DNA of 64,000 bases from Selaginella tamariscina. Taxonomy: Eukaryota; Streptophyta; Lycopodiopsida; Selaginellales; Selaginellaceae. This document shows positions 10,537-61,800 of the stretch, piece by piece (positions within the stretch are counted from its first letter, which is position 1; each line of letters begins with the position of its first letter). The notes beneath the pieces were generated by a model. The model did no database searches. It had not been told where the DNA came from and was given only the letters and a program-made list of their open reading frames with translations. The translations under genes and the position numbers were made by a program. The DNA is taken from NCBI GenBank assembly GCA_003024785.1, contig PUQB01000137.1:300854-364853 (forward strand), written 5' to 3'.

Positions 10537-13500
10537 TGGTATCAAAGCTCAATTCTTTATATCGATTTCTCCATAGTGATCCTAGTGATAGCCACATTGC
10601 AGCCACAAGGTTTCTTGAGTTTAAGGCCACCTATGTTTGATGGCAAGGGCTTCGATGGGTGGAAGTAGCTCGTGGCATTGTGTTTGAGGGCAGAGGGCAT
10701 CTATGAGATCGTGGATGGAAGTGAGTCAGAGCCACCATTGTCGAATGCCACCCACAATCGAGATGAGAAGGTGGCAAAGTAGAACACTCTACTCATGTGG
10801 AAGCAGAAGGACAATCTCGTGGCATTGTGTTTGAGGGCAGAGGGCATCTATGAGATCGTGGATGGAAGTGAGTCAGAGCCACCGTTGTCGAATGCCACCC
10901 ACAATCGAGATGAGAAGGTGGCAAAGTAGAAGACTCTACTCATGTGGAAGCAGAAGGACAATCGTGCCTTGGCATGTATTGCCATCTCCTTGGTAGCAAG
11001 GCAGTGGGAGATGTACAAATCCAAACTTGGGGCATGGCAGCAAGCACCTTTAGGATCTTATCCATGCCAAACATGGAATAGATGGGTTCAAGTACACTGA
11101 TGGTGAAGATCTCAAAGCACACATTCTTAAGATGTAGTAGTCATTTCGTATGCTTGTAGATGCTAGAGATGAGTATAAGCTTTCCGATTCTTAGAAGAAA
11201 CTTAAGCTCTACAAGTCTATGCCAAAGCCACAGAACAACACAATTGAGATATTATTGACTAGAATGAAGAGTTTAGCTTGGGATGAGGTCACGAGTCATA
11301 TCAAGCAGCTTGAGCTAATGCATGAGAGGCAGCACGAGGTACCAAATCGAGTTTGGTATGCATGACACAAATAACAACTTTAACAACAGCCTCATGGGAA
11401 ACAATAACAATCACAATAATTGTAGTAGCAAGGCAATTGCAAAAGGCTGAAGAAGAACCAATATCAAAAGTGTTGGCAATTTGGACATTGGGCCTTCCAT
11501 TATCCTAACAAAGGCAAAGGCAAGGAGGTTAACATGGTGGAGGCTTCATTTGTACAAGAAAAAAAACTGATTGAAGAAGTTGTTCATGTAAGTGAATTTC
11601 ATGTAATCATGATTATTGATTCTACATGTACCTTAGTGATGATTAAGTACAAGTGATTGGTACACGATTGTTAAGAGGGACATGAAAAAGTGCAGTTAAG
11701 CTCAAATATGAAGATTCCAATCAAAGCAAGGGAAACTTTCAATCTACCGTTGGTCCAAGGAGTAGTACAGCAAATGCCCAAGGCATTGCATATGCCAAGC
11801 CTAAGGAAGAACTTGTTGTTAGTTGCAAGACTTGCTAATGCAAGTTTGATGTGATAAGAACAATTGCACCTTCTATAAGCAAGGAGCACAAGTAGCTAGA
11901 GAAGCCACAACTCAAGGAAATTTGTACGAGATGCAAGTTCCAACTAATTTTGAGGCTTTGCTCACTATCAAGAAGCTAAAGGAGAAGGCTCTATTGTGGC
12001 ACAAAAGGCTCGCTCACGTCAACTTTTGCATTCTATACAAGATGCACCATGAAAAGCTTGTGGAAGGTCTACAACAAATCCCCAAGTTAACTCATCATCT
12101 TTGTGAGTCATGTATGCTTGGAAAGCATACAAGAAGGTCATACACTATTGCAGGAACACATGAGATCTCCTGGAGTTGGTGCACTCAGATATATATGGAG
12201 TAATGGAGGTTAACATCAAAACCAATTCAAAGTACTTCATCACATTCATTGATGACTTTAGTAGGAGGTTGTCTATGTTTTTTCTTAAGAAGAATAGTCA
12301 AGTTTTGAAAGCTTTTGTCACGTACAAAATAAACAGAGAACTAGCTTGGACGTAGATCAAGAAGCTATGCGTTGATGAAGGTGGAAGTACATTAGCAACC
12401 TCCTCAAGGGCATTTATTGGGCAATATGGATTTTGCAATAACAGACCACATGCCCACCCCTAAGCAAATTAGAGTGGCTAAGCATAAGAGCAAGACCTCG
12501 TGTGAAGCAACCAAAAGTTTTCTCATGGAAGGACACATGAGCAAGAATCTTGAGAGGACACTATGCTATTGCAGTCCATGTACAAAACAGGTTGCCAACT
12601 GTAGCTATTCCAAATGCTACTTCAGATGAGGTATGGACTTGTAAGAAGTATGATGTCTCTCATCTTCATATTTTTGGTTGTGTTATGTATGTGCAAGCGC
12701 TAAGACAAAAATTTAATAATAAAAGCATCTGATGTTGTTTTGTGGGATATGTTGTGAACCAAAAGGCTTACAAGTGTTGGAACCCTAGTTTTGATGTCGT
12801 GTTTGATGAATCTTCTACTCTAGGGCATGAGCAAAACGATACCTTTATTAATAAAAAATATCTTACTAATAATCCCATTATCTTGCCAAGTGTTGTAGAT
12901 GCCCAATATGAGGACGGCATGGGATGGCACTATGCCCAAGGAGAGCAGCATGAAGTAGTTTGCAAGATACATTGGTGCAAGGGGAGAATCATAGTGATGT
13001 ACCAGATGTTGTGCAAGCCCAAGATGTGCCTCATGAAGTTGTGGAAGTTATTGTTAGGAATACTTAGTTTCCACGTACCTCAATTTTTACTATTGTAGAT
13101 GCAAAAGCATTGACTGAGGCCAATGTACAGAATTTAGGATAGAAAAATGTTATTGTTCAACATCAATGCCCATCTACCAAGCCATTTGAGCCACTTCTTT
13201 CTCATACTTGTGCTCCAAGCCAAAAGGTAATTAAGAATGCAACAACATGATTGTATGTTGACTTGGAAGACTATTATCTTGTAATAGGAGATGAGCCGAT
13301 GACAATTGAAGTTCCAAGAAAGAGATGTGAATTAAAGTTGATGAGTGAAAATCAAGTTTAGGATTTGTGGATCTTCCAACAAGATGCAATGTGGTGGATT
13401 GTAAATGGGAAGAAGTGATCTAATGGTATTTTGGACAAGTGTAAAGCCAGGTTGGTGGCTCAAGGGTTCACACAAAAGGTAGGCATCGACTACAACAAGA

Positions 13501-14816
13501 CATTCTTACCAATGGTGCACATAAATAGCTTGAGAACAATTTTAGTGCTTGTAGCTCATGAGGATTGCGCATCCATTAGTTTGATGTGCAAACAATGTTC
13601 TTGGACTGGGATTTACAAAGAGATTTACATGCAGCAACTATCAAAATTTGTTGCAATAAGAGCAGAGTTCAAGGTTTGCCTCTTGAAAAAAGCTATTTAT
13701 GGTTTGAAGCAAACCAATATGGCTTGGTTTATGAAGTTTGATTCCACTACGAAGTGGAAGGGGTTTGTGAAATCAACAGCATATCCCAAATGTCTACATC
13801 AAGAGGATAGCAAATGCCATTGTGATCCTTGTGTTATACATTGATGACATGCTATTGTTAAGGTATAACATGGCTAGGATTGCAGCCACAAAGCATTTCC
13901 TTAGTAGCAAGTAGATTTGGGAGAAATTCATTTTTTCTTGGTATGAATATTGAACGTGACTATGAGCAAAAAATTCTTCACATTATTCAAGAGAAGTACA
14001 TGAGACAGGTGCTCTTATGTCTTGAAATGATGATTGTAAACCTGCCAAAGTTCCACTGGAGTTAAACTTGAAGCTTTTTCAAGAGAAACTTGAGCCAAGT
14101 AATATGGACTTTTCTTTATCTTACATGCAGTTGGCTGGAAACTTAATGTACTTAATGGTGTGCACACATCTTAACATTTGCTATATTATGATCACTCTCA
14201 ATCACTTCAACGACAAATACACCTAGAGACATTGGCCAATGACAAACAAGTTTTGAGATATCTCAAGGGTACTATTTCTTTTGGTATCTCTTACTCACCA
14301 ACAATTGATAAGTTTTTCATATGCCAGTTTGGCAACAACCACAAGTTTAAGTCTACTATAGGTTGCTGCCACCTTCTCCATAGTGGCATTGTTGGCTGAA
14401 CAACTAAAAGCAAGGTCTAATAGCTATCTCTTCAGCAAAAGCAGAATACTTAGCTTTGTCTTTGGGAGCTCGACAATTGGCATGTTTTAAAAGGTTAATT
14501 TAGATGTAGTTGAGTAAGTAAATGATGTTAACACGTGTGTGGACAACCAAAGTGCCATGAAGATCATTGAGCATCCTCAATTCAACTCCAAGTCCATCTA
14601 CATTTCTCTTCATTATTATTATGTGAGGCAAGTCAAGCAAGGCTTGATTTAGTAATAACTTTAAAAACACATTTTTATTTTTAACATGTTAAAACCCAGA
14701 TCAAGTTGAAGTACCTGTCTACTACAGAGATGCTGGCATATGTCTTTACAAAAGCATTACCTCCAAATCATTTTTTGAAGCATCGTCAAATAGCTAGGGT
14801 TACGAGCTTGAGGGAG

Positions 14817-26520: not shown

Positions 26521-26642
26521 GCAATGGAGTTTAATCTATCATCCTTCAAGTCAGTCCGCAGTTTCGCCAAACACTGGGAGGCACAGAATCGTTCGCTGCA
26601 TATCCTTGTCAACAACGCTGGAATATTCCACATGCCGGTATG

Positions 26643-26653
26643 CATATATAAGG
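26643..26653. repeat. Left target-site duplication of the MULE
   Basis: CATATATAAGG, identical to 34591-34601. The motif is AT-rich, so some chance similarity is possible, but it coincides with the end of the inverted-repeat similarity on both sides. Confidence 0.8.
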
Positions 26654-26845
26654 AGGATTAGCAAAAACCGGGCTTCGTACAACGGGCTTTTCGCATATTC
26701 CCGAATATCCAGGAATATTCTGTCAAATAAAAGGGAATATTCTAGAATATTCTGCCAAGTAGATTATCTTTAACTTTCATATAAAATGCCGACCAACAAG
26801 TGAAAAACGCTAATTATTTGCCGACTAGACTTTACTATACCGACT
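26654..26845. repeat. Left terminal region of the MULE
   Basis: The degenerate terminal repeat has GGGCTT twice (26670-26700). A cluster of GAATATTC-like palindromes follows (26702-26755), including GGAATATTCTAGAATATTC-type doublets. Then come TGCCGACC (26787), TGCCGACT (26819) and TACCGACT (26838), which match one half of the 16-bp palindrome repeated in the element's centre. Confidence 0.65.
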
Positions 26846-26849
26846 AAAC

Positions 26850-29800
26850 TTAAAAAGTCGCAGGTTCGACATTGCGCTTGCAACCAACCAATAACCGATG
26901 CACTTCTGCTGGAGTAAGGGTCCGCCTCTGTAAGAAGTAAGTAATCGTTGGGTCTAATCCAAGAACATGAGTGTACACAAAATACATGTGTTGGCAGGGG
27001 CTCCAGTTCTTGGCTTTCTGAAAAGTTGCACAAGTGCATGACGGAACAGAAATTGTTACCTTAGCAGATTGCATGCCTGCAGAGACAATGAAGGCCTCAG
27101 TCTTCCCTCTTTGAACCACCTCCACGTTGTTGATCCGACCTTGAAGAATCTTTGCCTGGTTGTAATGTTTCTCATGTTCCTTGGACATTCTTGTTGGTGT
27201 TCGCACACTCCGTCCATGGTATGTTGGTACTCTATGTGCTCCCTCTCCTCTTGGTGGTGATGGTGTTCGATCCATTCGGCTACTACTGTCGTCTACCATT
27301 TCTTCAAATCCCTCCAACTTGAATCCTGCTTTCAGAAGAGCTTCAACCTCATTTGCATTCAAGTTTGTTCCTTTTTGAACTGGCCAAACCTCTGGAACTT
27401 CTGGAATACTCTCAGGAGGAATCCCTGCATATGGTCGTCTGAAGCAACAAGAATCGCGTGGGCAGAACCATAGCATCTGATGAGTGAACTCAATGTTCCC
27501 AAATGCATTTGTATATTGCCGTCTACCGTGAAATCCTGGTGCCGGTACACGATGTGGATATCCTATGGGTCTGCCACACTTGCTGTTACCGTCCTGAGTG
27601 AGACCTAGACATTTCACCTGACTTGCCTCCCCAATGCGTCTGATGGCCCACTGAGTCATCAACGTCTCTCTTTCAGTGACATTGACATCTTGAAACTTGA
27701 GTTTTTTCCTGCGTGCATTTGGGATGACTTGTTCTGCATATTGTGTGTCATGTCTATGTGTACGAAGTGCATCAATCCCATGGTCCCCAGTTGACGGTTG
27801 ACGAACGGTTCGAACACGAACATTTGTTGTAGAGGCAAACTCTGGACTTGCAAGATGCTCTTCATCACTAACAAGATTTGCAAAAGTTGTTGGAGACACT
27901 GATTTTCCCGCTGAAAGTTTCTGCTGTGCACGTTTCAGAAGAGTTTCCATGGAAGGACCTGTGCCTGAATATCTCCCTTCAAATGATGCCTTGACCTTTG
28001 CACTTTGGAAAACAGCATCTGTTAAATCTAACATTGTTGCCTCCAACAAAGGAACACGCTTCGTCAGCCTTGCTCTTCGTGCTCTTGCATGAACAACTTC
28101 GGAGTTGTTAGTGGTAGGCACATTCGCAACACCATCTTCTGTCAAGTCAATTATCTCTGTCATGGAAATATGATCTTCATGTCTTGCCCACCATGACAGC
28201 CATGTTTGCAAAGCGCTAACGTTACTGGACCTGCCTTCCCAAAATGACTCCAACATTACTCGTCGTTCCAACTTATCTTGGTTGGTTAGTGCTGCAGGCC
28301 ATGAGCGTGCAAGGTTCATGTGCTCCTCCCTGTGTTCCTCAAGTATCCACTTCTTTGTAACTTGACGCACTGACTGCATGTAATGGAACAAACAACTCCT
28401 TTCTCTTCCTCTCATCTTTGACCCATTGTTGAAAACTTGACGCAATGCTAACCAAATTGCACCTGACTCATCTGACATGAACCCCGCAAAGTTCACATTA
28501 TGAAGTCCTTGCTTGCTGCACACTTGAAGCATAGTGTTCAAAAATTTGATCACCGCCACACTATCCTCCCTGATCATGTCACCATAAGCAAGTGTCACCA
28601 TCGACCTTAAACACACAAACATAAGTGCATTATATTAGTAAGTATTTTAAAACATAGATATGTTAATACTTACAATGGATCATAGAGATGTATTCCCAGT
28701 GTACACCAATCATCAATACGATATGTGTGGTCTAGCACCACCCACTGCTGTTCGAGATCACCTCCAGATTGACACCTTCTAATGTAGTCTATTCCGGATC
28801 CTGGGCCGGCAACGTCATTTTGAAGATTAAAGGCTGCTCTTCAGCTCCGTTGAGGTCCATTCCGGGTATGTGGATAACATGTATGAATGGGATTGATAGC
28901 TTCTTCTTTAACTGCAGAAGTCCTTCGTAACCTTCTTTGAAACGAGTGTCTGTTGTTCTAGCCTGAGATATCCATTCTCTTGTTCTACATTGGAAAGGTT
29001 AAGCATCTCCAAAAGGAAATAATAATTTTTTTGCTTACCGGCGGTGATTTGTGAGTGGTAGTAGATCTGACAGAACCTTGTCGTATGATACATCTCCAGA
29101 ATCTGTTACCAGTTTTTCCAAAATTATATTGCGTGCTGCTTGAAACTCTATGACACGTTGATTAGTTCTTGGGGTTGCAGCGACTGCTTTGTTGATTGTC
29201 TCCTTAGCTCTGTCTTTAGAGACCATGGATTCGGGTGGTCTACGTGGGTGTTGATGTTCTCCAAGATGGATGAAAAGCCTCGTGCATGTGATATCATCTG
29301 GAATTATGTAATATGCAACAACGGAGCATGTCTGCACTAGAAGGGGCTCATTGTTGCAATGCACACACTTCATTCCAAGCACTCTACCATCTGAAGATAA
29401 CTGGACTTTATCAATGGTGCCCTTAAATTGGCAGTCATTTGCTTTCTTACTGAAGCTGATGAACGGACATGTTTCCTTTACGCATTTCATGTGGCCAATA
29501 CATGAACTGCGACTAACACGAGCTGGAACATTCCAATGTGTTGTGCAGCGTTGAGTCCAGTAATCACACCCATCCTTCCTATTCATCCCTTTGTACTTGT
29601 CCTTCATTGTTTCGTGTGCTGGCAACTCGTAAATCACATTTCCGTTGCAATCTTCTGGGACCTCAGCAACTTGCTGAATCGATGACGAGACCACCAGTTG
29701 CTTCCCAATCCTACATCTCTGACTATTGCGAAGTATTGTTACCATAGAATTGTCCCGATCTGTTGTCTCCAACCGGAATAGCGGTCCTTTGGAAGGAAGA

Positions 29801-30018
29801 AGTGTGTAATACACAAAACTGCTAGCTCTTGCCCCTTCTGGTTCTACCTCAACATTCGCAGCATCTCCACCAACAACAGACATCAAATGCAGCACTTTAA
29901 AAGATTGCCAAGGTGGAATGTCAAATGCAGACCTGAGATCTGTTTCAAAGACAAATGCAATACCATCTTCATCTGCAGGGAAGTCCTTGTCAACACCATT
30001 GTAGCTGATTCTTGCCAT
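26850..30018 (-). CDS. MULE-type transposase
   Basis: Three exons: 30018-29039, 28984-28674 and 28605-26850, with GT-AG introns of about 54 and 68 bp. They encode about 1,015 residues if one base is restored in exon 2 (a run of C on the coding strand, 28803-28805). The N-terminal part has a Cys/His cluster (CVKETC, MKCVHC, GEHQHPRRP) resembling the WRKY/GCM-type zinc domain of plant MULE transposases. The catalytic RNase H-like core shows a first Asp in VVLDHTYRIDDW, a second in FAGFMSDESGAIW and the MULE C-x2-H signature (SCLFHYMQSV). The C-terminus carries a SWIM zinc finger (CTC near 26968 followed by CQH). It would bind the element's ends and excise and insert the element. Its start lies about 1 kb from the divergent partner gene. 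Confidence 0.85.
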
Positions 30019-30486
30019 GTAGCAAAAATGGAACAAACAAAAGTTAAAATTCAAAGACAATGAACATATTACACACGATGGTTAATGTGTTTGTCAGTCG
30101 TGAGGCAATCATTTCATTGACAAATATTAAAAATAATATTAATTGCGTGCGTCTGGGTAGAAGAGTGAAATTAATTTACTGCGTCTGGGTAGGTTTTTTG
30201 TAAATTAAAAAGTTTTACTATGTACAAGTGGCGATCATGCATGCAATATGTTTACAGAAATTAGGTTGGTTTTTAATTGATTTAGGGCGGCTAGGGTTTT
30301 GCAATTAGGGCGGCTAGGGGGAGCAGCGGCGCATTTGGGGGCATAGCGTGGAGCAAGTGTGGCTCCAGGGATTAATCACAATAGGCTTCCATTGAGGGGG
30401 TGAGTATTTTCTGATTTCTTCATGATCTGCTCATGATCTTTTCATGATCTGTTCATCTTTTTACATCTCTTCACAGTTGCAAGAAA

Positions 30487-30966
30487 TCCGAGTCGGCCTG
30501 CCGACTCGGACTGACTTCGTTGTCCGTCCCAGTCGGCAGGCCGACTGGGGTGGACTGTTCCAGATCCAGTCAACATTTTGACCGGGGTTGACTGTTCCAG
30601 CCCCAGTCAGCATTTTGACTAGGGTTGACTGTTCTAGTCCCACCTAGCATTTTGACTGGGCCTTGTTCGTTCCCAGTCCCAGACTGGGCCTCCCTGTTGT
30701 GCCAGTCCCAGTCGGCATGCCGACTGGGACTCCCTTTGTTGCCAGCCCAGTCGGCATGCCGACTGGGGGACTACTTTGATCGCCAGTCCCATCGGCATGC
30801 CGACTGGGCCTCCCTTTGTTGCCAGGCCCAGTCGGCATGCCGACTGGGACTCCCTTTGATGCCAGTCCCAGTCGGCATGCCGACTGGGACTCCCTTTGTG
30901 CCAGTCCCAGTCGGCATGCCGACTGGGACTTACAGCAACTGCTCTCTCAGTCGGCACGCCGACTGT
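30487..30966. repeat. Array of ~13 palindromes, 16-bp core, ~40-bp period
   Basis: The perfect palindrome AGTCGGCATGCCGACT occurs at 30710, 30749, 30830, 30870 and 30909. One-change versions lie at 30491, 30531 and 30949, and a 15-bp form at 30791. More diverged units (such as AGTCAGCATTTTGACT) lie at 30568, 30605, 30642 and about 30675. Spacing is 37-42 bp. The core is usually extended by CCC...GGG, giving stems of up to 22 bp, and the linkers are alike (ACTCCCTTTGTTGCCAGTC). The array lies between the divergent transposase and ParB-methyltransferase starts, where a shared promoter should be. Half-sites recur just inside both element ends. Confidence 0.9.
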
Positions 30967-31050
30967 GAGGGCTAGTATGTTTTTTTAATTTTTATTAAAC
31001 ATCTTTGAACATTTATTACAGTTTTTTGTTAAACCTTATTGCTTTTGTAG

Positions 31051-34000
31051 ATGCGCTCTTCACAACGTTTACAAGAAAAGAAGATGAAGGAGCCTACTGA
31101 GAGAGAAGCAGAAGCTAGAGCTGCAATTCAGAGAGGGCGTCGGGGTCGTGGGAGAGGAAGTAGGAAGCTGGCTGTGGTTCAGGAACAAGGACCTTCAAGT
31201 GATGCTCCAGTTGAACAGGCAAGCCAGCAGGACTGGTCAGGAGAGCAAGAGGATGTAGTTCAACCCCAACAAGAACAATCAGACTTTGTTGAAGAAGTTG
31301 AGGATGATGTCTTACCACAGGAGACACAGGAGCAGACAGAAGGCACACAAGCCTCATGCGCAGTGACTTTGTCGAGTGACGAAGAGGATGAACCCAAGAG
31401 CAAGAAGAGACGACGCAAAGCTGCTGGAGATTCAGAGGCTGCTAAGAAGAAGAAGAAGGGTAAAGCAGAAGTGCCAGATAATGAGGAAGTTTACAACATT
31501 GCAGCCAGCATGCATTCGGAGAGTGCAGTGCGTCTTCTCGCGAAGATCACAATCCGAGAATATGGAGAGGCACCGGATGTCCCTATTTGCCGAATTCTGG
31601 GAAATGAGCAGGTGCGGAGAGTCAATCCAGCGGATCTGGAATCTTTGACTAGGAGTTTCAAGAAGGCAGTTGGTTATTTGCGCAACACCACTCAGTTCAT
31701 CCTTCAAGTTGGGGACCCCATGACAGATGCAGATCTGGCAGCATTGAGAAGCGATGAAGCGATGTATGCTCAGCATTTGGCTTTTGAGGAGGAGCTTCAG
31801 TCCGACATGTTCCGGCAATGGGCACCAATGCTTTCGATGAAGAAGTTCATCTGTTGGGATGGTAATCACAGGCTAAAGGTGCTTCAGAAGCTGTACACAG
31901 AAGACACGGAAGATAAGAATCAGTGGGCAGTGAGAGTGCGTTCAGGCTTCATCCGTGCTGGGGTCATGGATAATCTTCAGCTTGTGACAATGTTTCAGCA
32001 AATTAATAGGTAAACATAGTGACCTCTAGATCATAGGATTAACTAACTTCGAGCTTTTCAAATATGCAGTTCCTCCGCAACGGCAGTGCAAACCACACTG
32101 CCACATCTTCTGCTATCTGTGAAGACATGTTGCACCAGTGAGGAGGGCACAGCGAAGATCTTGGCCAGGCTCAGTGACAAGGAACGAGATGACATAAGAA
32201 AGTGGAAGGAAAGCGCGACTGGACAACAAGCTTGGCATCCACTTCCGAATTTGATCTGTGCAAAGATCTTTTTTTGAGGTACCACGTCTCACACTTATAT
32301 ACTTAGTTGATTACGTCTGTGAATTACAGAGTGAGATTGAGGATGATCTTGAGAAGGCTGCAAGGGCATCCAAAGGCAACAAATACCAGGAGCAACAACA
32401 GGTCTACATTAAGCATGACAAGCGCATGATGAAGATCTTAGCCATCATCGATCCTGCATTGGGTGAAGAGTGGTTCGACAAGGTGACCCAAATCACATGG
32501 AAACAATGCAGATGGATGGGGTTGGAAAAGCTGTACGCGCTTTCAAGGGCGAGAATTCCAAACGAGACGAGAATCATGTACTTCAATAAACTGGTACGTC
32601 TCGATCTGAAGAGAGAGCAAGAGACACTTGGATTGCCGGGTGTTCAGGATAAGGAGTGGATAAGGTGGTTTACTATCGATTTGTATTGGCGGGCAATCAG
32701 AGAGGAGGCAGTACAGATTCTCACGGGACTCATCGAGGATGGCGAGTGGAGCAGGCCGGTTACAGATTTCACGACTTGGTACGATGAAGTGCGGGTAAAA
32801 TGCAAGAACGTGATGTTCCAGCCATTCCATGAGTGTGTGAAGTTCACTTACTCCATAGAGCCGAAAGAGTTCCTCGAACACGAAGAGACAGCAAGAAGGA
32901 TGATTTGGAGGTAAGGATGATCTTCTTGACATTGTTACATTCTGACACTACTATATGTTCATTACAGGTATGTCGCAGCGAGAAAGGTGCCTCACACACA
33001 GACTATGGTATTCTGGTCAGATTACATGGAAGCACCACACATGTGGTCGAAGACAAGATCTGGCCTGACAGAGTTCGAGCGTGTACACGTACCGTTCTGG
33101 CTTGATTATCCACCTGGGCAACCACCAACATGGGAGAAGGATCTCTACAATGAACACTCAAAAGATCTCCCATGCATCTCATGGGATCCGGCAGAGGTCG
33201 ACTTCATTAAGAAGACAAAGGCCAAGGCAAAGCGGCGTCAGCCTGTGCAGCAGTCAAAGAAGACCTCAGATACAGTAGCTGGCACCTCCACTACTCGCGA
33301 TCCAGCTGCCTTCTTCAATTTATCTGAAGTGCTACCATCGCAGGGAACCATGGACATCAAGGATGACTTGGTCACATTCGTCCCTTCACTTGCTACAACT
33401 CGAGGTGATAATTTCTTGGCGATTGATGACATCGAGGAGATGCAACAGGCCGTGCTCACGGATGAGAAGGAAGAGGAGGTTCCTGACGCTAGACTGGTTC
33501 CTTATAGAAAAGTTCAGACACAGGTGGCCAGGTACCATACAGCTGACAGCCAGACTCGCTACCAGCATATTGCGGGAGAATATGGTTTCAACTTGGTGAT
33601 CTTCGACCTTCCAAATGGGACCTTGCCAGGAAATACAACGAGTGATACGCCATACCTCTACCTTGATCCAGTGAAGTTCGATGAAGCACTCCAGTTTGCA
33701 GGTATGCATATGGCTGCAAATGGTTGGTTGGTTGTGTTTGCTGCAGCAAACACCTGGGATCAAGTTGTCCGAGCTGCAAGTGTGGTGGACCTTCAACTTG
33801 CTGCAACGTACTACATCTACAGAGGGCGTGGTTGGGGCTACCGCAACAAGATGAAGGTACTTTTTTCTTTATTCATGAAGTTCATTAATGATTTTTGATG
33901 TTTTAACAGGAGAGCATCCTGCTCCTTCTTGTCTTCCAAGATGCATCTAGAGGATTGCGCGATAATCCGCTGCGTTTGTCATCAACAATTCTTGTTGATA

Positions 34001-34372
34001 ATCCTGAGCGGTTCCAAGAACCATGGTAGGCATTTCATTTCAACAATTTAAGTATTTACCATTATCTTCACATGCAGGATGGACTACCAACCGAAGAGCA
34101 CTCGATTGATGCAGCTCGTGATAGAACGACTCACCCGGCCAGGTGATCTTATCTGGGATATAGGCAGTGGTACGGGGTCCTCAATGCTTGCAGCTATCGA
34201 GCTGGGGAGAAACATTGTTGGGACTGAGAAGAACCCTGAGCTCGGGAGAATTGCTATGAACAGGATTAAAGAGAACATCCAGCCAGAGGAAATCCCAACC
34301 CAACCAATAGCGACGTCAAGTAGGACTGGTGGTTCACGAATTGCAGCATTGCTCAATCGTAAGAAGAAGTGA
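31051..34372 (+). CDS. ParB-like domain fused to a beta-class DNA methyltransferase fold
   Basis: Six exons: 31051-32009, 32070-32278, 32330-32910, 32968-33856, 33910-34025 and 34078-34372, with GT-AG introns of 51-60 bp. They give about 1,015 residues, allowing for one extra T in a T7 run (32269-32275). Residues 1-130 are charged, with a nuclear signal (KSKKRRRK). Residues about 150-320 resemble the ParB/sulfiredoxin-like fold, with PICRILGNEQVRR, a LESLTRSFKKAVG helix and the hallmark CWDGNHRLKVLQKL. Near residue 795 lies motif IV (NLVIFDLPNG), where active N4/N6 methyltransferases have (D/N/S)PP(Y/F/W). Near 935-960 lie motif X-like PKSTRLMQLVIERL and the SAM-binding motif I WDIGSGTGSS. 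The IV-then-I order is that of beta-class enzymes. ParB-methyltransferase fusions are known from phages and bacteria. Binding is more likely than catalysis. Confidence 0.8.
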
Positions 34373-34459
34373 CAAGTGTTGAATTGTACTCTTTGGTGTT
34401 GAAATAAAACTTTAATAATACAGTATAAACATGGCTATGATTAAATATTTTTTGTTGTT

Positions 34460-34590
34460 AATTGCCGACTGAGCCAAAATCCTAAATTCTAAGAAATATT
34501 TAGGAATATTCTAAGAATATTTCTGGTAGATTCTTTAAATATTCCGGGTCCAAGCCCGGAAGCCCGGAAGCCCTCTTTTTTGTCGGGACT
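34460..34590. repeat. Right terminal region of the MULE
   Basis: It mirrors the left end. The half-site TGCCGACT lies at 34463-34470, GAATATTC-like palindromes at about 34490-34550, and repeated AAGCCCGG motifs at 34553-34575 before the terminal TTTTTTGTCGGGACT. Confidence 0.65.
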
Positions 34591-34601
34591 CATATATAAG
34601 G
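34591..34601. repeat. Right target-site duplication of the MULE
   Basis: CATATATAAGG, identical to the left copy and directly abutting the terminal AGTCCCGACAAAAAA (read on the minus strand). Confidence 0.8.
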
Positions 34602-35355
34602 TATCATAAATGTATAAAAGAACACATTGAGGATTTTCTTTCTTATCTATTTAGTTGTAAATTTATTTATGTATATATAGGTTCCGAGAAGGTTTCAGAA
34701 GATAACCTGGAAGAACACATGCAAGTTAATCACTTGACACCTTCACTGCTCACAGTGCTTTTTCCGTCCTTGCTAAGGAGTAAGTCTTCACGTGTCATCA
34801 ACGTCAACTCTGATATGTTTAAGATAATAATATAAAATAACCTTATTTTATGAAAATCATCTATTAACAGTTTGCATTTTATTGTACTGATTATTTTATT
34901 TTATTTAGATGCATTGTCTTGGTTCAATAGACTTTGAAGATCTCAATATACCGCAGGTTATTCTTCCAGCAAACTTGCTCAGGTATGTGTCTTCTGTGTG
35001 TGCAGATATAGACACGCACAAAATTAGCGTTATGTGTGAGTGTCTTACATATACACACTCACACACCACTTGTATATATATGTATACGTGTATGCGTCTA
35101 TTCTGTTGGTTACGTGTATGTTTCTTTATTTCAGTTGCTGTTTAGCAGCGTGCTTCATAGAACATTGCCAGCAAGAAGCATGTGTCGAGATATTTAGTAC
35201 ATCCAGGCGAAGGTGGTAATTATACTTATTTCGTGTATATGTTTGTTTAATTTAATTATTATTAATAAAATTATTTTTGCTATTGTGTGTAGGTTCGAAC
35301 TCTTCCAAAATGGCTCCAAGTAGCACACCGTTTCATTCCATTTTTTCCTCTTCAG

Positions 35356-40173: not shown

Positions 40174-40240
<67 letters not shown>

Positions 40241-48722: not shown

Positions 48723-49901
48723 ATGAAGAGCAAGCTTATTGGAACACTGCTCTTGCGTCAGCAGGAGCTCAGATCTGGACGGATACTTTCCCAAAAGATG
48801 CACTACAGTTCAGTCACTCGTGCTAAGTCTCCGCTTTTCCTGGAGAATTGTCATAAGATTACCAGTGTACAAGTTGCTCAGTTCTCACCTCTGCGGGGCT
48901 GGTTCAGGCTGAGCAGCTCTGCTGCTGCTCAAGCCGTTGAAAGAAAAGAGGAGGTGAAGTTAGAGAGTGGACAGCAGTTTTCGGAGTACTGGGGAATAAT
49001 TCCACAGAAAGCTCTACGAGAGGATGGGACACCGTGGCCTTGGAACTGCTTCAGAGTAAGTTTTGTTCTCTTCACCCAACTCTTATATTTCCTTTCCTTT
49101 GTGTGTTGGAATCCCAGCCTTCTGACACGTACATCCCCGACACAAGCATTGATGTAAAGAAGCACCACATTCCCGATTCTTTGGTGGACAAGGTTGCCTT
49201 CCGAACTGTGAAGTTCCTTCGAAGACTATCCGACTTATTCTTTCAGGTGAGCTGCACGTCATGTCGTAGAATCATAAGTTGTACACTGTCTGTAACAGAG
49301 ACGGCACGGCTGCCATGCCGTGCTGCTGGAGACAGTCGCAGCGGTACCAGGCATGGTAGGAGGGATGCTCTTGCACTGTAAGTCAATTCGAAGGTTTGAG
49401 CATAGCGGTGGCTGGATCAAAGCACTCCTGGAGGAAGCAGAGAACGAGAGAATGCACCTGATGACGTTCATGGAGATGTACCAGCCAAAGTGGTATGAAC
49501 GTGCACTGGTTTTCACAGTCCAGGGAGTCTTCTTCAATGTCTACTTCCTCCTCTACATTCTTTACCCTCGGCTAGCTCACAGAGTGGTCGGTTACTTGGA
49601 AGAGGAAGCTGTCACGTCCTACACCGCGTTTCTCAAGGATCTCGATGACGGTACCATGCCAAACACTCCTGCACCTGCCATTGCCATTGACTACTGGCGC
49701 CTTCCAAAGGATGCTACACTCCGAGACGTGGTTTTTGTTGTCCGAGCAGATGAAGCACGCCATAGAGACGTCAACCACTTTGCTGCGGTAAGCAAGCTCA
49801 GGATACTTTTCATCTTCTTAGTCTTATATGGTATCTTACAGGACGTCCACCTGCAAGGAAAAGAGCTGCGACAATCACCTGCTCCCCTTCACTATCACTA
49901 G
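48723..49901 (+). CDS. AOX: Mitochondrial alternative oxidase
   Basis: AOX is a di-iron ubiquinol oxidase of the inner mitochondrial membrane that bypasses complexes III and IV. Exons 48723-49055, 49118-49246, 49299-49787 and 49842-49901 join in phase 0 to 336 residues, a normal length. The four-exon layout matches many plant AOX genes. The N-terminus is Arg/Ser/Leu-rich and lacks acidic residues, as in transit peptides. The di-iron ligand motifs are all present: [30 protein letters not shown] and [15 protein letters not shown]. The C-terminus is short and polar. The gene is intact and converges with the PPR gene, only 99 bp away. Confidence 0.95.
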
Positions 49902-50000
49902 TATATATATTCAACCACAGATCTGTTCTTCCGCTGCTATGCCTAGAGCACGACGAGCCCCACTAGAAGGATGTTAGCACCAGTTTCTATTCTAATATAC

Positions 50001-52295
50001 TTAGATTATGAATCGTTGAAACTCTTGCTCTGGCAGGAAACCTTCAAGCTGCATACCCCAAAGTATCTCTCGAATCCCCTCAGTCCCACCACCATTCAAA
50101 CAGGCCAAAGCCAAGGCATTCCATGATGAGCCATCTCTATATTGCATTAGATCAAACAAAACCCTTGCACTCTGGAAATCCCCACGAATCCCATACATGT
50201 TGAGCACATCACTCTGCATTCTGAAACTCATCCTCTTAAGTCCAAACCTCCGCTTAAGTCTAAACCTCCCTAAAACATGATAAACCAGGCTCTCATCGTC
50301 AGCAAATGCATTTACACACGCAGCTAACACACTGTGGTGGCTCTCATCGTCTGGCCTCACCTCCTTCCTCATAACCTCGTACAGCTTTAAACACTCGGTG
50401 AACTCCCCATGTTTAACATAAGCAGCCAGCATTGCGTTCCACGGTCGTATACTCTTCGTCTTCCTTGTCTCAAACACCAACTTTGCATCGTTTGAACTTC
50501 CGCAGTCTGAGTACATCTTCACAATGGCAGCAAGTAGTCCTGGCTTGTGTTTAACCAATGTAGCTATGGCTCTAGCATGAATACGTTTACCTTGTGAAAG
50601 AAATTCAGGAGAAGAACAGGCTGCGAGTGCCTTCTTGTAAGTTTCATTATCTGGATTTCTACCCCGTGCTCTCATTGCCTGGTAGAGCTCCAAAGCCTCT
50701 GTATTCAACCCTTGATTTACGTATATCGAAATGCATGAGTTCCTGCATACAGTAAATGGTGCGTGTGTTTTTGTGTGTGTGTGTGAGAGAGAGAGACAGA
50801 GACAGACAGACAGACAGACAGACAGAGGGATTTACCATGGAGAAATGTCGAGCTTTGCAGTCACATTCAGGATTTCTTTTCCACGCTCAAACATACGAGA
50901 CTCTGCATACACCTTTGCAAGAGCGTGAAGTAACTTCTTGCTACAAGTACGATCGTACCCTGTTGAGACTATCCTCTCTACAATGGATCGAGCGTATGAC
51001 AAATCCCTTATATGTAGGCATATCTCAAGCACATTTGAATATGTTATCTTGTCTGGCTGCTTTCCCTCAAGTACCATCTCCCTGTATAGCCCAAGAGCTC
51101 TAGGAAACAATCCAAATCTGCATATTCATGAACTTAAGCTGATCCCATCACACAATATACGTGTATGCTCTTTTTCACACACTCTCTTCTCTCTCTCTCT
51201 CACACACACACACAAGCGTATGTATAGAAAATGTGAACCTGCAAAGGGCGATTATCATCGCATTCCATGAAGCTGCCTCCTTGAATCTTACATCTGCGAA
51301 CACCTGCTCAGCCAAGTCCAGTCTGCCACATTTTCCATACATAAAAATGAGAGCACTCTGAAGAACATGGTCCTGCTCAATCTTGGTGTCAATGAGCTCG
51401 TGATGGAATGCTATCCCTTCCTGAAGATACCTATATAACATGTCCATACATTATACACACACCTACAAGCACAACGTACCTAAGTTGGCCGCAAGCACGT
51501 ATAGCATGAGTATACGATGTACAATCCGGCAAGCCGCCTTGTGTTTGCATTCTACGGAACCCACGGTACACCTTGCGATGCATGTTGTTCTCCGCAAGCA
51601 GACCGAGATAAGTATTCCAAGAAACACATTTCTATTGTCCATTGCCTCAAATACATCACATGCCCATTCCACATTTCCACACTTGCCATAGAATTTAATC
51701 AGTAAATTCCCCATGTACGTGTCTCTAAGGTACTTGGTAGCATCCATATGCCTGAACCAAAAACGTGTGTTCGTGTGATTACCCATGTCACACACACAAG
51801 CGGCTTGGAATACAACAATCGCTGCAAATGCAATTAATGGGCATATGCAGTGAACACTGTAGATCACGCACGCACTAATACACATGAAATCTAGTGACTT
51901 AATCACTACAAAAGAAGCAAATGCATTTCACAGACATATACAATGAGCATTGTACACATGGCAAACAAACACACACAGAGGCTGCTGTTTTGAATCACCA
52001 TAAGCGTGGCAAATGCCATTGACGGGCATATGCTGGGAACGTTAACACACTACCTGTGTACTCGAACACCAAATGAGAAGGCGCGCTCGTGGGTGCACTT
52101 GCGAATTAGATTTGCATAGATGGAAGAGCTTATACGCTGAGAAGAATAAGTCTTCTCTAGAGCGTCTACAACATCCGTTAGTTCCTGAGATACCCATGGC
52201 TCCTTTGGATACCGTATACGTCTCCGGTTCGTGAAGCTCAGCTTCTGGTTCTCCCTCCGCTTCTTCCTCCACACGCCCCTCAGAAACGCATTCAT
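50001..52295 (-). CDS. PPR protein with four introns
   Basis: PPR proteins bind organelle RNA, one base per repeat. Exons are 52295-52054, 51751-51480, 51430-51239, 51117-50836 and 50742-50001, with GT-AG introns. They give 576 residues if one T is restored in exon 2 (51622-51624). Repeats show typical helix pairs: MGNLLIKFYGKCGNVEWACD, LIFMYGKCGRLDLAEQVF, ASWNAMI, LYREMVLEGKQPDKITYSNV, LELYQAMRARGRNPDNETYK and PWNAMLAAYVKHGEFTECLK. Their mixed lengths point to the PLS subclass. No DYW, E or SMR domain follows, and the protein ends in GFLPEQEFQRFII. No clear transit peptide is visible. Intron-rich PPR genes are usual in mosses and lycophytes and rare in seed plants. It diverges from P5CR 198 bp away. 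Confidence 0.85.
50793..50826. repeat. (GACA)n microsatellite in a PPR intron
   Basis: A tract of GAGA then GACA units within the last PPR intron, adjoining a (TG)n tract at 50770-50784. Confidence 0.9.
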
Positions 52296-52493
52296 CCATA
52301 AACCCGTAAATTACTAGATTTGTAAAACGTTGGACATTCTAGGATATACTATGTTGATGAGCTTATCATACACATTTTAAGATGTATGCTCAATGAACAG
52401 TAATACATTAGTCTAAAAATGCTTATACTACACAATTGATACCATGGAATCTGATGATCTAGGTTTAGGGTTCTTGGGAGGTTTAGGAGGAAG
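52296..52493. promoter_or_regulatory. Divergent PPR/P5CR promoter region
   Basis: These 198 bp separate the start codons of two divergent genes and must contain both promoters and leaders. No confident TATA box was identified. It may act as a bidirectional promoter. Confidence 0.45.
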
Positions 52494-53925
52494 ATGGGAT
52501 GCAGAGTGGGATTTGTGGGAGCAGGAGCGATGGCGGAAGCGATCGCCCGGGGACTGCATCGTGCGGCTGTCGTTCCTGTCTCTCGTATGATCGCGGCCGA
52601 TGTGAACGAAGCCCGTTGCAAGGTATTTGAGCAGTTCGGCGTCCGCACTGTTAAATCAAACCACGAGGTAAGAAATACATTATATACATTATACATATAC
52701 GTATAATATATGTATGTGTATAATGTGGTTATGTATTTTCTTATTTGAGGAAGTAACTTTTATTAATAAAGACCAGAATGTATATAAATATTTTCTCACA
52801 TTACCACAGGTTGCATCTAGCAGTGATGTTATAATTCTAGCAGTCAAGCCACAGTTTGGTAATTTGTTCACACAATGTGTTGTGGAGAGAGAGGGCTTAT
52901 TGTGTTTTACAGCTAGTAAAGTGGTCAAAGACCTCAGACCCACTCTCACGAAAGAGCATCTACTTATATCCATCGCTGCTGGTGTGACTTTGGATAGCTT
53001 GCAGGTATTGGTTATATATGTACATGTTATGGAAAGATGCGTGTGTGTGTGCGTGCGTGCACGCGACCTAAAGAAACAACGCCTTATATACAGAAGCTTG
53101 TTATATGGCATCAAAGTGTAGCTCTCCCTCTCCACGTCTTTACTTAAGTGTATGATTGCATAGGAATGGGCAGGGGAGGCAAGAATAGTCAGAGTGATGC
53201 CTAACACGCCTTGTCTCGTGGGAGAGACAGCAGCCGGTAATGTAAAACCTTGGACATTAAGTTAATCGATTCTATTATGTTTAATTACTTCATTTGCAGC
53301 TATGAGCCTAGGGAAGCTGGCTACAAGCACGGATGCAGACCTTGTGAAGTCACTCTTTGAAGCAGTTGGGAGGATACACGTAGTGGAGGAGAAGCTGCTA
53401 AATGCTGTCACTGGCCTCAGGTAGAAAATGTGTGCGTGGCGTGTGTGTGTGTGTGAGTTTATATCTATACACCATACATGTACACCATACATGTATTTTG
53501 CAGTGGTAGTGGCCCCGCATATATATTTATTACCATTGAGGCTATGGCCGATGGTGGAGTAGCTGCCGGTTTGCCAAGGGATATCGCATTGTCACTGGCA
53601 GCACAAACGGTACACATATTACTAAATTTATAATACCCGGGCATTGTTACTATATACGTATTTTCGCTATTTTTACAGGTTTTGGGATCAGCTAAAATGG
53701 TGCTTGAAACTGGAAAGCATCCTGGACAATTGAAGGATGAGGTTGCATCACCTGGAGGTAACATACCGTGTGTGTGCGCGTGTGTAAAAGAGAGAGATTA
53801 ACTATCCTGTCGCTTCAGGCACCACAATAACGGGATTGCAGGAGCTTGAGTGTGCAGGTGTGAGGTCTGCTTTTATGAAAGCCGTGAAAGCTGCATCTGA
53901 GAAGAGTGAAAAGCTTTCGAGGTAA
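52494..53925 (+). CDS. P5CR: Pyrroline-5-carboxylate reductase
   Basis: P5CR makes the last step of proline synthesis, reducing pyrroline-5-carboxylate with NAD(P)H. Eight exons: 52494-52667, 52810-52858, 52913-53004, 53164-53236, 53300-53420, 53504-53609, 53679-53757 and 53819-53925. They sum to 266 residues, the usual length. The dinucleotide-binding motif ([16 protein letters not shown]) opens the protein. [51 protein letters not shown] and [17 protein letters not shown] are all recognisable and in order. The second intron (54 bp) could be retained without breaking frame, inserting 18 residues. The product has no targeting sequence and is probably cytosolic. The gene is intact and converges with the carrier gene, 126 bp away. 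Confidence 0.95.
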
Positions 53926-54051
53926 GGTTTTGATGTTTATTCGTCATTTTATATAACTCCTTAATAAAGTACATATAAATTCACTCTACGTATTACACTC
54001 GCTCTCGCGCACACACACACACAGACACACACAAACTGTTAACAAGTTCAT

Positions 54052-54878
54052 TTACTTTAGATATGTCTTAGCCATTTCGTAGACCAGATATGTGACACTC
54101 GATTGAGGAAGCACTTTAACGAGGCTAACTGATAAACCCTTGTAAAACCCTCTTAATCCCTCCTCTTTAAGAATCATCTTAAAAGCTTCACTCACCCCCC
54201 TGTAGCCATTGATCTGCAACCTAGTCCTCACCAGCTGCAAAGGAAACACAGACACTGCCCCGGTTGCACCCCCAACCATCCCACAACCGAGTGCCACTAA
54301 TGGGTGTGTATTTTCTCCCTCTTTGATAAACAAGCCTCTCAATACATGATAAGTTGCTAGATCGATTCCTGTATATGGAACCATTCCCATGAGAGAGGGT
54401 GTGAGACCTCTGTAAAACCCTCTCAAACCCTCTCGTTTCCATATACTTAGTGCTAGTTTAGCAGTAGAAGCTCTATCTTGAACCTGAAGCCTCGTCTTTA
54501 GGGTTTCAACCGGATAAACCGAAGCTAATGCAAACCCACCAGCTAAACCACCGGTGATAACCTTGGCACCATGTGAACTTGTTGTTCATTAGAGAACTTT
54601 CTCCCTAGAGCATTAAATGCATAAAACTTAATTGCACTCTCTGGTGTAGCTTTTAAAACGTTTAGACAGTTACCAACGTAATAGCTACGCATGCCTCCGT
54701 GTTTATATATAAACTTGATACCCTCAAGCATGCCTAGACGCTGCGTGTGGTGCATAGTCTTAGTTTGCTGTAAAACTTTGAGTCGATCTAACGGTGCTGT
54801 TGTTGTTCTTGAAATTAAACCTGCCAGCCCTCCAGCTATGAATTCCTTTCTTTCCCCCATACTGTACCCTAGAAACAT
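54052..54878 (-). CDS. Mitochondrial carrier, ATP-Mg/Pi (SCaMC/APC)-like
   Basis: Mitochondrial carriers move metabolites across the inner membrane through six helices in three repeats. All three signature motifs are present: PLDRLKVLQQ, PVETLKTRLQ and PLQLVRTRLQ, with GLRGFYRGL and GLRGFYKGL matrix helices. SRTTTAPLDRLKV is closest to calcium-dependent ATP-Mg/phosphate carriers, but no EF-hand region is visible upstream, so the substrate is unsure. A one-base shift occurs near 54569-54571, between QQVH and GAKVITGGLAGG. With one base restored the frame is open to the stop. An acceptor-like sequence (TTTCTAG) just after the first ATG suggests that upstream exons may exist and that the true start is uncertain. 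Confidence 0.85.
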
Positions 54879-58889: not shown

Positions 58890-61800
58890 GTTTGATAGTA
58901 ACTACTTTCATAGCTCTCCGTTTCCAGCTACTTTTTTTTCCTTGATTCTTTTCCTTCGTTTTCCTCCTTTTCTTTCATAGATCATGGCTGATTTTGAGCA
59001 CTTTCAACGCGAGCACCAAATGTTGCTTCATGAGCTGGCCACTTTGCGCCAAGTGGTCACCGATCTGCAAGGTTCCACCAATGCGGCACATGCAGCTGCT
59101 GATGCATCCTCCAAGGCTGCTGCACAGGCTCTCTCTCAGGCATCGGTGGTTCCTTTCATCGAACTTTTCTCGGAGCCGAAGATCAGCATGCCAGAAAAGT
59201 TCAGTGGCAATCGTGCCGATTTCCAAGGTTTCCTGAATCAGATCCGGCTCTTGATCCGCATGCAACCACGCCGCTACTCGACTGATGCAAAAGGTTGGCC
59301 TTTTGGCATCCTTACTAAGTGGATCTCCACGGGCTTGGGTTGCCCCCTTGCTGGAGCGTGACGACCCATTGATGGAAGACTTTGAAGGTTTCGTGGCTGC
59401 CTTTGAAGCCTGCTTTGGAGATCCTGATAAGTACCGTTCCATGCACGAAGTTACGGAAGCTCACTCAAGGATCCCGACCAGCTTCCGTCTATGCATCCGA
59501 ATTTCAGCAACTTTGCACGAACATTCCATGGGACGAGACTGCATTGATCGAACACTTCCGTTTTGGGTTGAGGGATGACGTGAAGGACCTTCTCCTTACG
59601 TTACCGGATGCCCAAACATTAGCGAGATCATGCAACAAGCTGTTCGTTGCGACAACCGTTTGTTCGAGCGTCGTCAGGAAAGATCCCGTCAGCAGTTCCT
59701 GCAAACCAATCCTGCAGTGGTACATGTTCCTGCACCACCTTCTGGAGTAGTTCCTATGGAGGTTGAGAAATCCAAGCGTGGCTCTCTTTCCGCTGCTGAG
59801 AAGCAACGTCGCCAGTGAGAACCTATGCTTGTATTGTGGTGAAGCAGGACACAAGGTGGCAGAATGTCCTATTAAAGCCAGGAAGTTCAAGACGCGTGAA
59901 GTTGAAGCTGAAGTTCAGTCGGAAAACTTCAATGTCCACTTCGTCTAGGAGCCGCGAAGTTGGACGTAGGTGCAGGCTCCATTGGTGCTGCTCATACCAT
60001 TCCATCACTTAAGTTTTGTACACATTCATCTTAATAATCGAGAGCTCAAGGAGTTTGCCTGTTAGACACTGGTGCAAATGCATGCTTCATGGATGACACT
60101 TTTCAACTCAACATGGCATTTCGGTGGTGAAGTTGAAGCGTGCAGTTCCTGTAGAGGTGGCCGATGGGCTGATTGCTTCTGGCGAGTTACCCATGCTACA
60201 ACCTCTCTCTTCAGTCATGGCACATTCAACTGTTCAATTTCCTTCAACTTGATCAAGACTCGGTCGACTCCCATCATTTTGGGCATGCCATGGTTCGTTG
60301 TTGCAAATCCGCAGATCGACTGGAGGTCTAGGACGCTCACGTTTTCCTCTCGGCACAGGATCAATCCTGTACCTTCCTGCGTGCAGGATACATCCTTAGT
60401 ATCTGAGGCAGTACAAGCTACAGGATTGACCGTGCCTGTTCCTGTACCAGTGTTGAAGACTCCTCCTCGACAGGATTCACCTCATGTCAGTTCCTCAGCA
60501 CATCCGCAGGCTCTCTCCACTCCTGTAAGTTTGCGGTTCCTGTACAGGGTTCTTCCAATCCTGTATCAGTGTCGAAGGTTCCTCCTCAACAGGATCCACC
60601 TCCTGTTGGTTCGTCAGCACATCGCAGGCTTTCCCACTCCTTGCAACCACGGACTCCTGTACAGGATTCTTCCAATCCTGTACACTCGTCAACATCCACA
60701 CAGGTTTTTCCAATCCTGCCTCTTTCTGTTACTGCTTCTGTTCCACCCCCAAGATCCTTCCTCTTTTTCAGTCACAGCTCCCTCCTTCTCCTCTCCGAGT
60801 TCTTACCACTACCATGCATGAACTTGCCACTGATCCTGCTCCTTTCCACCTTTTTGCCTTTCAAGTAACTCCTACGTCCTCTTCTACCTTTCCTGTATCT
60901 ACTCTCCTGTTTTTCAATCTCCTTCTCCTCTCCTTCTCCTTCTCCTCCTTCTTCCCTACCATCCAAGTATCACGACCTTTAAGGACGTTTTTGACAAGCA
61001 CAAGGCTGCAGTTCTTCCTGTTCACAGGTCCTACGACTGTCCTATTGATCTTGCGGAAGGAAAGACTCCACCATTCGGACCGATTTATGCATTGTCACCC
61101 ACAGAGTTGGAGGTTCTTCGTCAGTACATCGAGGACAACTTGGCATCCGGCTTCATTCGTCACTCAAAGTCCCCTGCAGGAGCACCTATCTTCTTTGTCA
61201 AGAAGAAGGATGGGAGTTTACGTTTGGTTGTGGACTACAGGGGTTTGAATCAAGTCACCATTCGGAATCGGTACCCGTTGCCATTGATCCCGGAACTTCT
61301 CGATCGGCTGCGAGGAGCAAAGGTGTTCACGAAGATCGACTTACGAGGGGCCTACAACCTTGTACGGATTCGTCCAGGCGATGAGTGGAAGACTGCCTTT
61401 CGTACAAGGTATGGACACTTCGAGTACACGGTGATGCCTTTCGGCCTTACCAATGCCCCAGCCGTGTTCCAACACATGGTGAACGACATCTTTCGTGACT
61501 TCTTGGACCAGTTTGTGGTGATCTACCTCGACGACATTTTGATTTTCTCCAAGGACCAGGCGGCACATGACAAGCATGTACGATTAGTTCTAGAGCGGCT
61601 TCGCGAGCATGGCCTGTACGAAGTTGGAGAAGTGTTTTTTCGATAGGGATTCGTGGAGTTCTTGGGCTACATCGTCTCTCCTGCTGGCGTTTCCATGGAC
61701 ATGCACAAGGTGAAGACCATCGTGGAGTGGGAGAGGCCCAAGTCTGTACGAGATGTACAATGTTTCCTTGGCTTTGCAAACTTCTACAGGCGGTTCATAC

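Follow-up and report, generated by a model that had tools for sequence, protein, structure and literature searches.

The stretch of Selaginella tamariscina DNA analysed here (hereafter the window; 64,000 nucleotides of contig PUQB01000137.1, positions 300,854 to 364,853) contains an element of 7,937 bp (26654-34590) that is, very probably, a two-gene DNA transposon of the Mutator-like element (MULE) kind, in which a transposase gene is placed divergently to a partner gene of the methyltransferase family. The G+C content of the element is 45.6%, compared to 39.1% for the window. An exact 11-bp direct repeat, CATATATAAGG (direct-repeat family D13), abuts both edges of the element, with the left and right copies of this target-site duplication located at 26643-26653 and 34591-34601, respectively. 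Its length falls within the 8-11 bp given for MULE target-site duplications in the available passages of PMC6446971. The left terminal region (26654-26773) shows inverted similarity, by local alignment, to its counterpart at the right end (34471-34590). The inverted repeats are short and imperfect, being built of GGGCTT and AATATTC blocks, and the local alignment score of 42 obtained for the inverted 120-bp ends was reached by none of 500 random window pairs. Terminal inverted repeats of MULEs are long in many members and degenerate or absent in others, and the end similarity observed here fits within this range. The intact boundaries proposed in the first-pass annotation, which was made from the sequence alone, are thus borne out.

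The minus-strand gene comprises three exons separated by GT-AG introns of 54 and 68 nt and is predicted to encode a divergent MULE-type transposase. Exon 1 (29039-30018), identified from its open reading frame and by BLASTP, codes for the N-terminal part of the protein, including cysteine and histidine residues which are conserved in a transposase relative, P0001, a protein of 644 amino acids encoded in an open frame on a 4,971-bp public contig. The first putative catalytic aspartate (VLDHTYR) is encoded in exon 2 (28674-28984), and the second (GFMSDES), together with a CLFH motif and a SWIM-type zinc finger, in exon 3 (26850-28605). P0001 was the sole transposase homologue among 5848 candidates at E ≤10 (e-value: 6.7e-18), and no relatives of the transposase were confirmed in viral or prokaryote contigs. 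In BLASTP comparison, P0001 aligns with exon 1 and the start of exon 2 (27% over 318 columns, 301 window residues; e-value: 5e-30), and again with the end of exon 2 and exon 3 (39% over 194 columns, 184 window residues), so that the homology extends over approximately 485 transposase residues.

The order D...D...CxxH is the signature of the MULE DDE domain. Motifs of this type are present in order in the window protein, with both aspartates putative and the third acidic residue not placed, and form the conserved pairs VLD/FFD, SDE/ADE and CLFH/CSFH with P0001. A model of P0001, built with two window pieces, is of low confidence (mean predicted local distance difference test score, pLDDT: 39.8) and cannot establish the fold; starting at the first aspartate, it shows three strands together with a helix. 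The zinc finger follows the putative catalytic domain, as in many MULE members, and scores above the Pfam SWIM cut-off of 19.6 bits on a cut-out piece (20.4 bits) and below it in the whole transposase open reading frame (15.7 bits). The Pfam MULE models returned no row for the window pieces and none for P0001, and either the family is too divergent to be matched or it does not belong to the MULEs proper. The conserved motifs and the SWIM finger, together with the 11-bp duplication, place the element with the MULEs.

The partner gene and its methyltransferase domain

The partner gene is located on the plus strand (31051-34372), and its six exons, separated by five GT-AG introns of 51-60 nt, code for approximately 1,000 residues. 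Exon 1 (31051-32009) encodes an acidic/basic low-complexity N-terminus followed by a part, containing a DGNHR motif, that was once called ParB-like. Exon 2 (32070-32278) contains an in-frame TGA codon (32275-32277), and exon 3 (32330-32910) is without known domain. The first half of the methyltransferase domain, with DLPN at the motif IV position, is encoded in exon 4 (32968-33856) and, following exon 5 (33910-34025), the S-adenosylmethionine (SAM)-binding half (WDIGSGTGSS) in exon 6 (34078-34372), where the Pfam PF01555 and phrog_67 matches are located. The three strings singled out in the first-pass annotation, CWDGNHRLKVLQKL, FDLPN and WDIGSGTGSS, are all present in the plus-strand product. 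A splice-acceptor-like stretch, TTTTGTAG, lies immediately 5′ of the ATG of this gene (31030-31050), suggesting that the intergenic palindrome array described below may sit in a 5′ leader intron of the partner gene.

The beta-class methyltransferase fold that had been assigned to this product is well-supported by comparison with profile and sequence databases. The C-terminal half matches the Pfam family N6_N4_Mtase (37.3 bits; cut-off: 26.7; e-value: 3.7e-9), which is the only match of the partner above a Pfam cut-off, as well as the DNA methyltransferase family phrog_67 of PHROGs (44.8 bits; e-value: 1.9e-11). The best PDB chains include MboIIA, DpnA and CcrM (e-values: 6e-4 to 5e-3), with a ribosomal protein L11 methylase (e-value: 0.002) ranked between the DNA methylases, and the best NCBIfam row, that of the corrinoid-protein methylase CpaM, is far below its cut-off. 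By tblastn, a 626-residue piece obtained 452 matches at E ≤1 among 50,697 phage records and a 227-residue piece 1587 matches among 72,556 plasmid records, none of which covered 80% of the respective query. A profile of seven of these relatives, taken from four of the 20 phage rows and three of the 40 plasmid rows listed, scored 58.8 bits on the partner domain and aligned with residues 66-225 of 227. In the beta order, motif IV lies upstream and the SAM-binding motif I downstream. This order is observed in the partner, where DLPN in exon 4 precedes WDIGSGTG in exon 6, and the D and GxG columns of the SAM-binding motif are invariant among five aligned sequences. Taken at the level of sequence comparison, the C-terminal domain of the partner is therefore a probable relative of the bacterial and phage beta-class amino-methyltransferases of the N6-adenine or N4-cytosine type. 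Relatives of partner exons 3-6 were not confirmed in viral contigs.

The N-terminal part of the partner had been interpreted as a ParB/sulfiredoxin-like domain, and the gene as a ParB-methyltransferase fusion carried by a MULE. The MULE-type element and the methyltransferase-family partner are retained from this interpretation, but not the ParB half: in the hidden Markov model searches proposed alongside it, N6_N4_Mtase was found above its cut-off and ParB gave no match. None of the ParB models in Pfam matched the partner, the only rows for exons 1-2 being CDC45 and THOC2_N, neither of which came close to its cut-off, and a ParB match was likewise lacking in PHROGs, NCBIfam and PDB and in phages and plasmids searched by tblastn. 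A ParB_N profile was constructed from five sequences, namely RepB of one plasmid (L009) and four PDB chains, and is small enough for very remote kinship to escape it. It scored -0.8 bits on the partner, a value equalled or bettered by 195 of 501 controls, which comprised 500 shuffled versions and the reversed sequence; scores were returned for 364 of all 502 sequences. In hhalign comparison just 16 residues around DGNHR (GxxR box), the one motif to be found, were paired with ParB, at a probability of 0.12 on a scale of 0-100. RepB itself was recognized by Pfam ParB_N as a positive control. A stretch of phage P1 and the starts of three further plasmids (L010, L011 and L012) were also examined for ParB genes, with only that of L009 being annotated (RepB). 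RepB relatives were not found in viral contigs, and the 17 phage records which RepB matched were not used in the profile. Modeled in the absence of related sequences, exon 1 gave a structure (mean pLDDT: 47.1) whose quality, like that of the P0001 model, did not suffice for a fold search. With no library match and a profile score no better than that of shuffled sequences, the ParB/sulfiredoxin-like domain was rejected as unsupported, and on these comparisons we advise against keeping the ParB call unless support for it emerges from deeper alignments.

The palindrome array and a candidate self-targeting mechanism

An array of 22-bp palindromes with the consensus CCCAGTCGGCATGCCGACTGGG, which was overlooked in the first-pass annotation, occupies the region between the two divergent start codons (30488-30967). 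It consists of twelve units with at least 15/22 consensus matches, five of them perfect and seven variants; a row with 13 matches represents an overlap artefact and was left out of this count. Ten of the eleven spacings measure 37-41 bp, and one 68 bp. Near-palindromic 22-mers (at least 10/11 base pairs) occur at 60 places in the window: seven fall within the array, 45 belong to a TA run (40184-40228) and eight lie elsewhere, including one in partner exon 4 near 33743.

The half-site of the palindrome, GCCGACT, occurs 21 times in the 64 kb. Nineteen copies are inside the element, 17 of them in the array, and the remaining two are found one near each end (26820 and 34464). Two copies lie outside the element, one of these (26129) shortly to the left of it. 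The left subterminal region (26788-26846, plus strand) harbors GCCGAC at 26788, GCCGACT at 26820 and CCGACT at 26840, and the right subterminal half-site GCCGACT is located at 34464-34470 on the same strand. Within the terminal 250 bp, GCCGAC is thus present twice on the left and once on the right, and 20 of 1108 overlapping 250-bp background intervals of the window contain at least one copy.

We propose that one of the two proteins, the partner or the transposase, would recognize the GCCGACT half-site, both in the row of 22-bp palindromes within the shared promoter/leader and near the two element ends. Binding at these positions would alter the expression and transposition of the element, with the element either becoming methylated or host silencing being held off, in either case to the benefit of the element. 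As an account of the locus as a whole, a MULE with an accessory methyltransferase-family protein that acts on its own array is the explanation we tentatively prefer, at a confidence somewhat short of even. For the self-targeting mechanism as such, in which the partner acts on the DNA of its own element, our confidence is lower and it is put forward as a possibility only. By analogy with the VANC proteins encoded by the VANDAL family of MULEs, the simplest reading would be that of an accessory protein aimed at its own array, perhaps by methylation.

A more specific form of the proposal would be a plant MULE with its own sequence-specific amino-methylation system, in which a bacterial-type methyltransferase domain is fused to a large targeting region. 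The array in the divergent promoter and the half-sites at the ends would be marked, and a private N6-methyladenine (6mA) or N4-methylcytosine (4mC) mark, unlike the C5-methylcytosine (5mC) of the host, would control silencing or the timing of transposition. Land plants are generally regarded as marking their DNA mainly with 5mC, and the occurrence of 6mA in plants is disputed. We consider this form unlikely.

Evidence against the proposal, alternative explanations and known systems

Several observations weigh against the preferred reading of an accessory protein acting on its own array, and these concern the element ends, the catalytic motif, the reading frames and the isolation of the element. 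When the weight matrix of the array was applied to the ends, the right end outscored all 1108 background intervals, but the left end was ordinary, with 87 of the 1108 scoring as high. The half-site motif was, furthermore, chosen after the array had been seen, and the end statistics are therefore suggestive only. Half-sites near the ends are also where a transposase would bind, and the array could accordingly represent an autoregulatory transposase binding site, with the partner a cargo protein whose target is elsewhere, be it RNA, protein or host DNA. The matches of the SAM-binding half to the L11 methylase and, below the cut-off, to CpaM would be compatible with such other targets. As the sole Pfam match above its cut-off is, however, to a DNA methylase family, and most of the domain is covered by the alignment to the DNA methylase profile, we regard this alternative as rather unlikely.

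The motif IV position does not conform to the pattern [D/N/S]-P-P-[Y/F/W]. The relatives read DPAY, DPPY (four sequences), DIPY and DLPY, with tyrosine in the fourth place in 7/7, as opposed to the asparagine of DLPN in the partner. The change in the second place has a precedent in DLPY, but the loss of the aromatic residue has none among these seven relatives. The placement of DLPN depends solely on multiple alignments, since the alignment to the profile and the longest of the tblastn matches alike start downstream of it. In the bdelloid N4CMT enzyme, activity was abolished when the serine and tyrosine of SPPY were changed to alanine (PMC8885841, available passages). Methylation activity of the partner domain appears doubtful, given that DLPN lacks the tyrosine kept in all seven relatives.

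The loss of this aromatic residue would be expected if the partner were a catalytically dead methyltransferase relative serving as a DNA-binding, VANC-like anti-silencing factor, in which SAM binding is lost or structural. VANC provides a precedent for this, as its targets are often tandem repeats of short motifs in the non-coding parts of VANDAL MULEs (PMC5735166, available passages). This likeness rests on analogy rather than sequence comparison, however, and the partner retains the SAM-binding motif (D, GxG), for which a protein acting purely as a scaffold would have no use; a dead enzyme of this kind is somewhat unlikely in our estimation. Should the protein nevertheless be inactive and DNA-binding, it would be an example of a transposon having converted an enzyme into a protein that reads sequence.

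Both genes also appear to be frame-broken in this copy, as most plausibly spliced. In the partner, the junction between exons 2 and 3 is out of frame and the other four junctions are in frame, and the transposase has one frame change in exon 2 near 28810. The two large, divergent, spliced genes of the first-pass annotation were recovered with GT-AG introns of 51-68 nt, but neither is intact when spliced in this way. On paper, the breaks could be bypassed by longer or irregular GT-AG introns, in 45 ways in the partner and in 19 ways in the transposase, and a rescue by splicing is conceivable on this basis, most readily for the partner. The transposase alternatives either delete stretches which align with P0001 or depend on introns as short as 35-38 nt. 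As the P0001 alignment stops and restarts on either side of the transposase frame change, the latter most probably reflects damage to this copy or an assembly error, rather than an unrecognized intron. With both genes apparently broken, the copy would depend on other copies. The element is known from a single copy in the window, where blastn (e-value cut-off: 1e-3) retrieved no second one, and no homologues of the partner protein were obtained at E 10 among two sets of scored candidates (0/7995 and 0/3334).

An apparently frame-broken partner with a degenerate motif IV, seen in a single copy, could also be a captured and decaying gene, carried as a Pack-MULE-like passenger without a role in transposition. 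Against this, the partner has five GT-AG introns, four of which join in frame, and is otherwise open over approximately 1,000 codons, while the divergent layout of the two genes around an elaborate shared array has the appearance of an evolved unit. The transposase also carries a single frame change, and the break in the partner is therefore no sign of neglect of that gene alone. We consider a mere passenger improbable.

The closest parallel to the proposed arrangement is found in the VANDAL MULEs of Arabidopsis, which likewise have an accessory gene beside the transposase and tandem motif repeats in non-coding DNA (PMC5735166, available passages), and whose terminal inverted repeats are short and degenerate or lacking altogether (PMC6446971, available passages). 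The likeness concerns the layout. The accessory protein here has, by contrast, a methyltransferase-family domain, and the repeated units are 22-bp palindromes, as opposed to the 9-nt motif of VANC21. Methyltransferases are encoded by DIRS elements with Dam-like enzymes, by LINE and DIRS elements of Symbiodinium and by charophyte elements with DNMTs (PMC5890265, available passages). These are, however, retroelements with Dam-like or C5-cytosine enzymes, whereas the element described here is of the cut-and-paste type with an N6_N4_Mtase-type domain. DNA transposons with a methyltransferase gene include a virus-borne Mariner with an endonuclease and a methyltransferase (PMC3627910, available passages), and MuDR and Harbinger elements of Phytophthora with SET histone methyltransferases (PMC12730594, available passages), which differ from the present case in superfamily or in enzyme class (histone SET; Methyltransf_26, C5-cytosine). 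The bdelloid N4CMT shows that a bacterial-type amino-methyltransferase can be at work on eukaryotic DNA, but it is a chromodomain fusion with an intact SPPY and is not described as transposon-borne in the available passages of PMC8885841.

Mobile elements bearing methyltransferases are as such already known, and it is the N6_N4_Mtase-type domain in a plant MULE that appears new. No plant MULE with an N6_N4_Mtase-type gene was found among the matches listed in open-access full text, a collection in which subscription journals are mostly not included. In the available passages, PMC6446971 mentions neither methyltransferase nor Selaginella, PMC13317346 mentions neither methyltransferase nor methylase, and PMC12695648, which has the MT-A70 adenine methylases as its subject and reports that doubts have been raised about 6mA in plants, does not mention ParB. 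If the preferred reading of an accessory protein aimed at its own array is true, the element would represent a further answer, beside VANC, to how transposons meet host silencing. It combines a relative of bacterial-type amino-methyltransferases with candidate target sites arrayed within the element itself, for which CCCAGTCGGCATGCCGACTGGG provides a concrete and testable motif.

The element separates two exons which jointly match the short-chain dehydrogenases (Pfam adh_short, 40.1 bits with the exons joined by X; cut-off: 26.6), and the predicted site of insertion is therefore an intron of a gene of the short-chain dehydrogenase (SDR) family. These exons lie at 26530-26640 and 34680-34820, and an apparent 5′ splice site is present a few bases before the element. 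The genomic setting appears plant-like, with pentatricopeptide repeat (PPR), alternative oxidase and mitochondrial carrier genes and nearby RVT_1 and RVT_2 reverse transcriptases. The cluster of alternative oxidase, PPR and mitochondrial carrier host genes is located at 49296-54585, and the alternative oxidase introns also appear short by eye. The reverse transcriptase fragments match RVT_1 (114.6 bits) and RVT_2 (71.6 bits), at 60834-61643 and 13419-13841, respectively, and are presumably the remains of two kinds of long terminal repeat elements. A 147-bp unit is furthermore duplicated in tandem at 10669-10963, its two copies sharing 98% matches.

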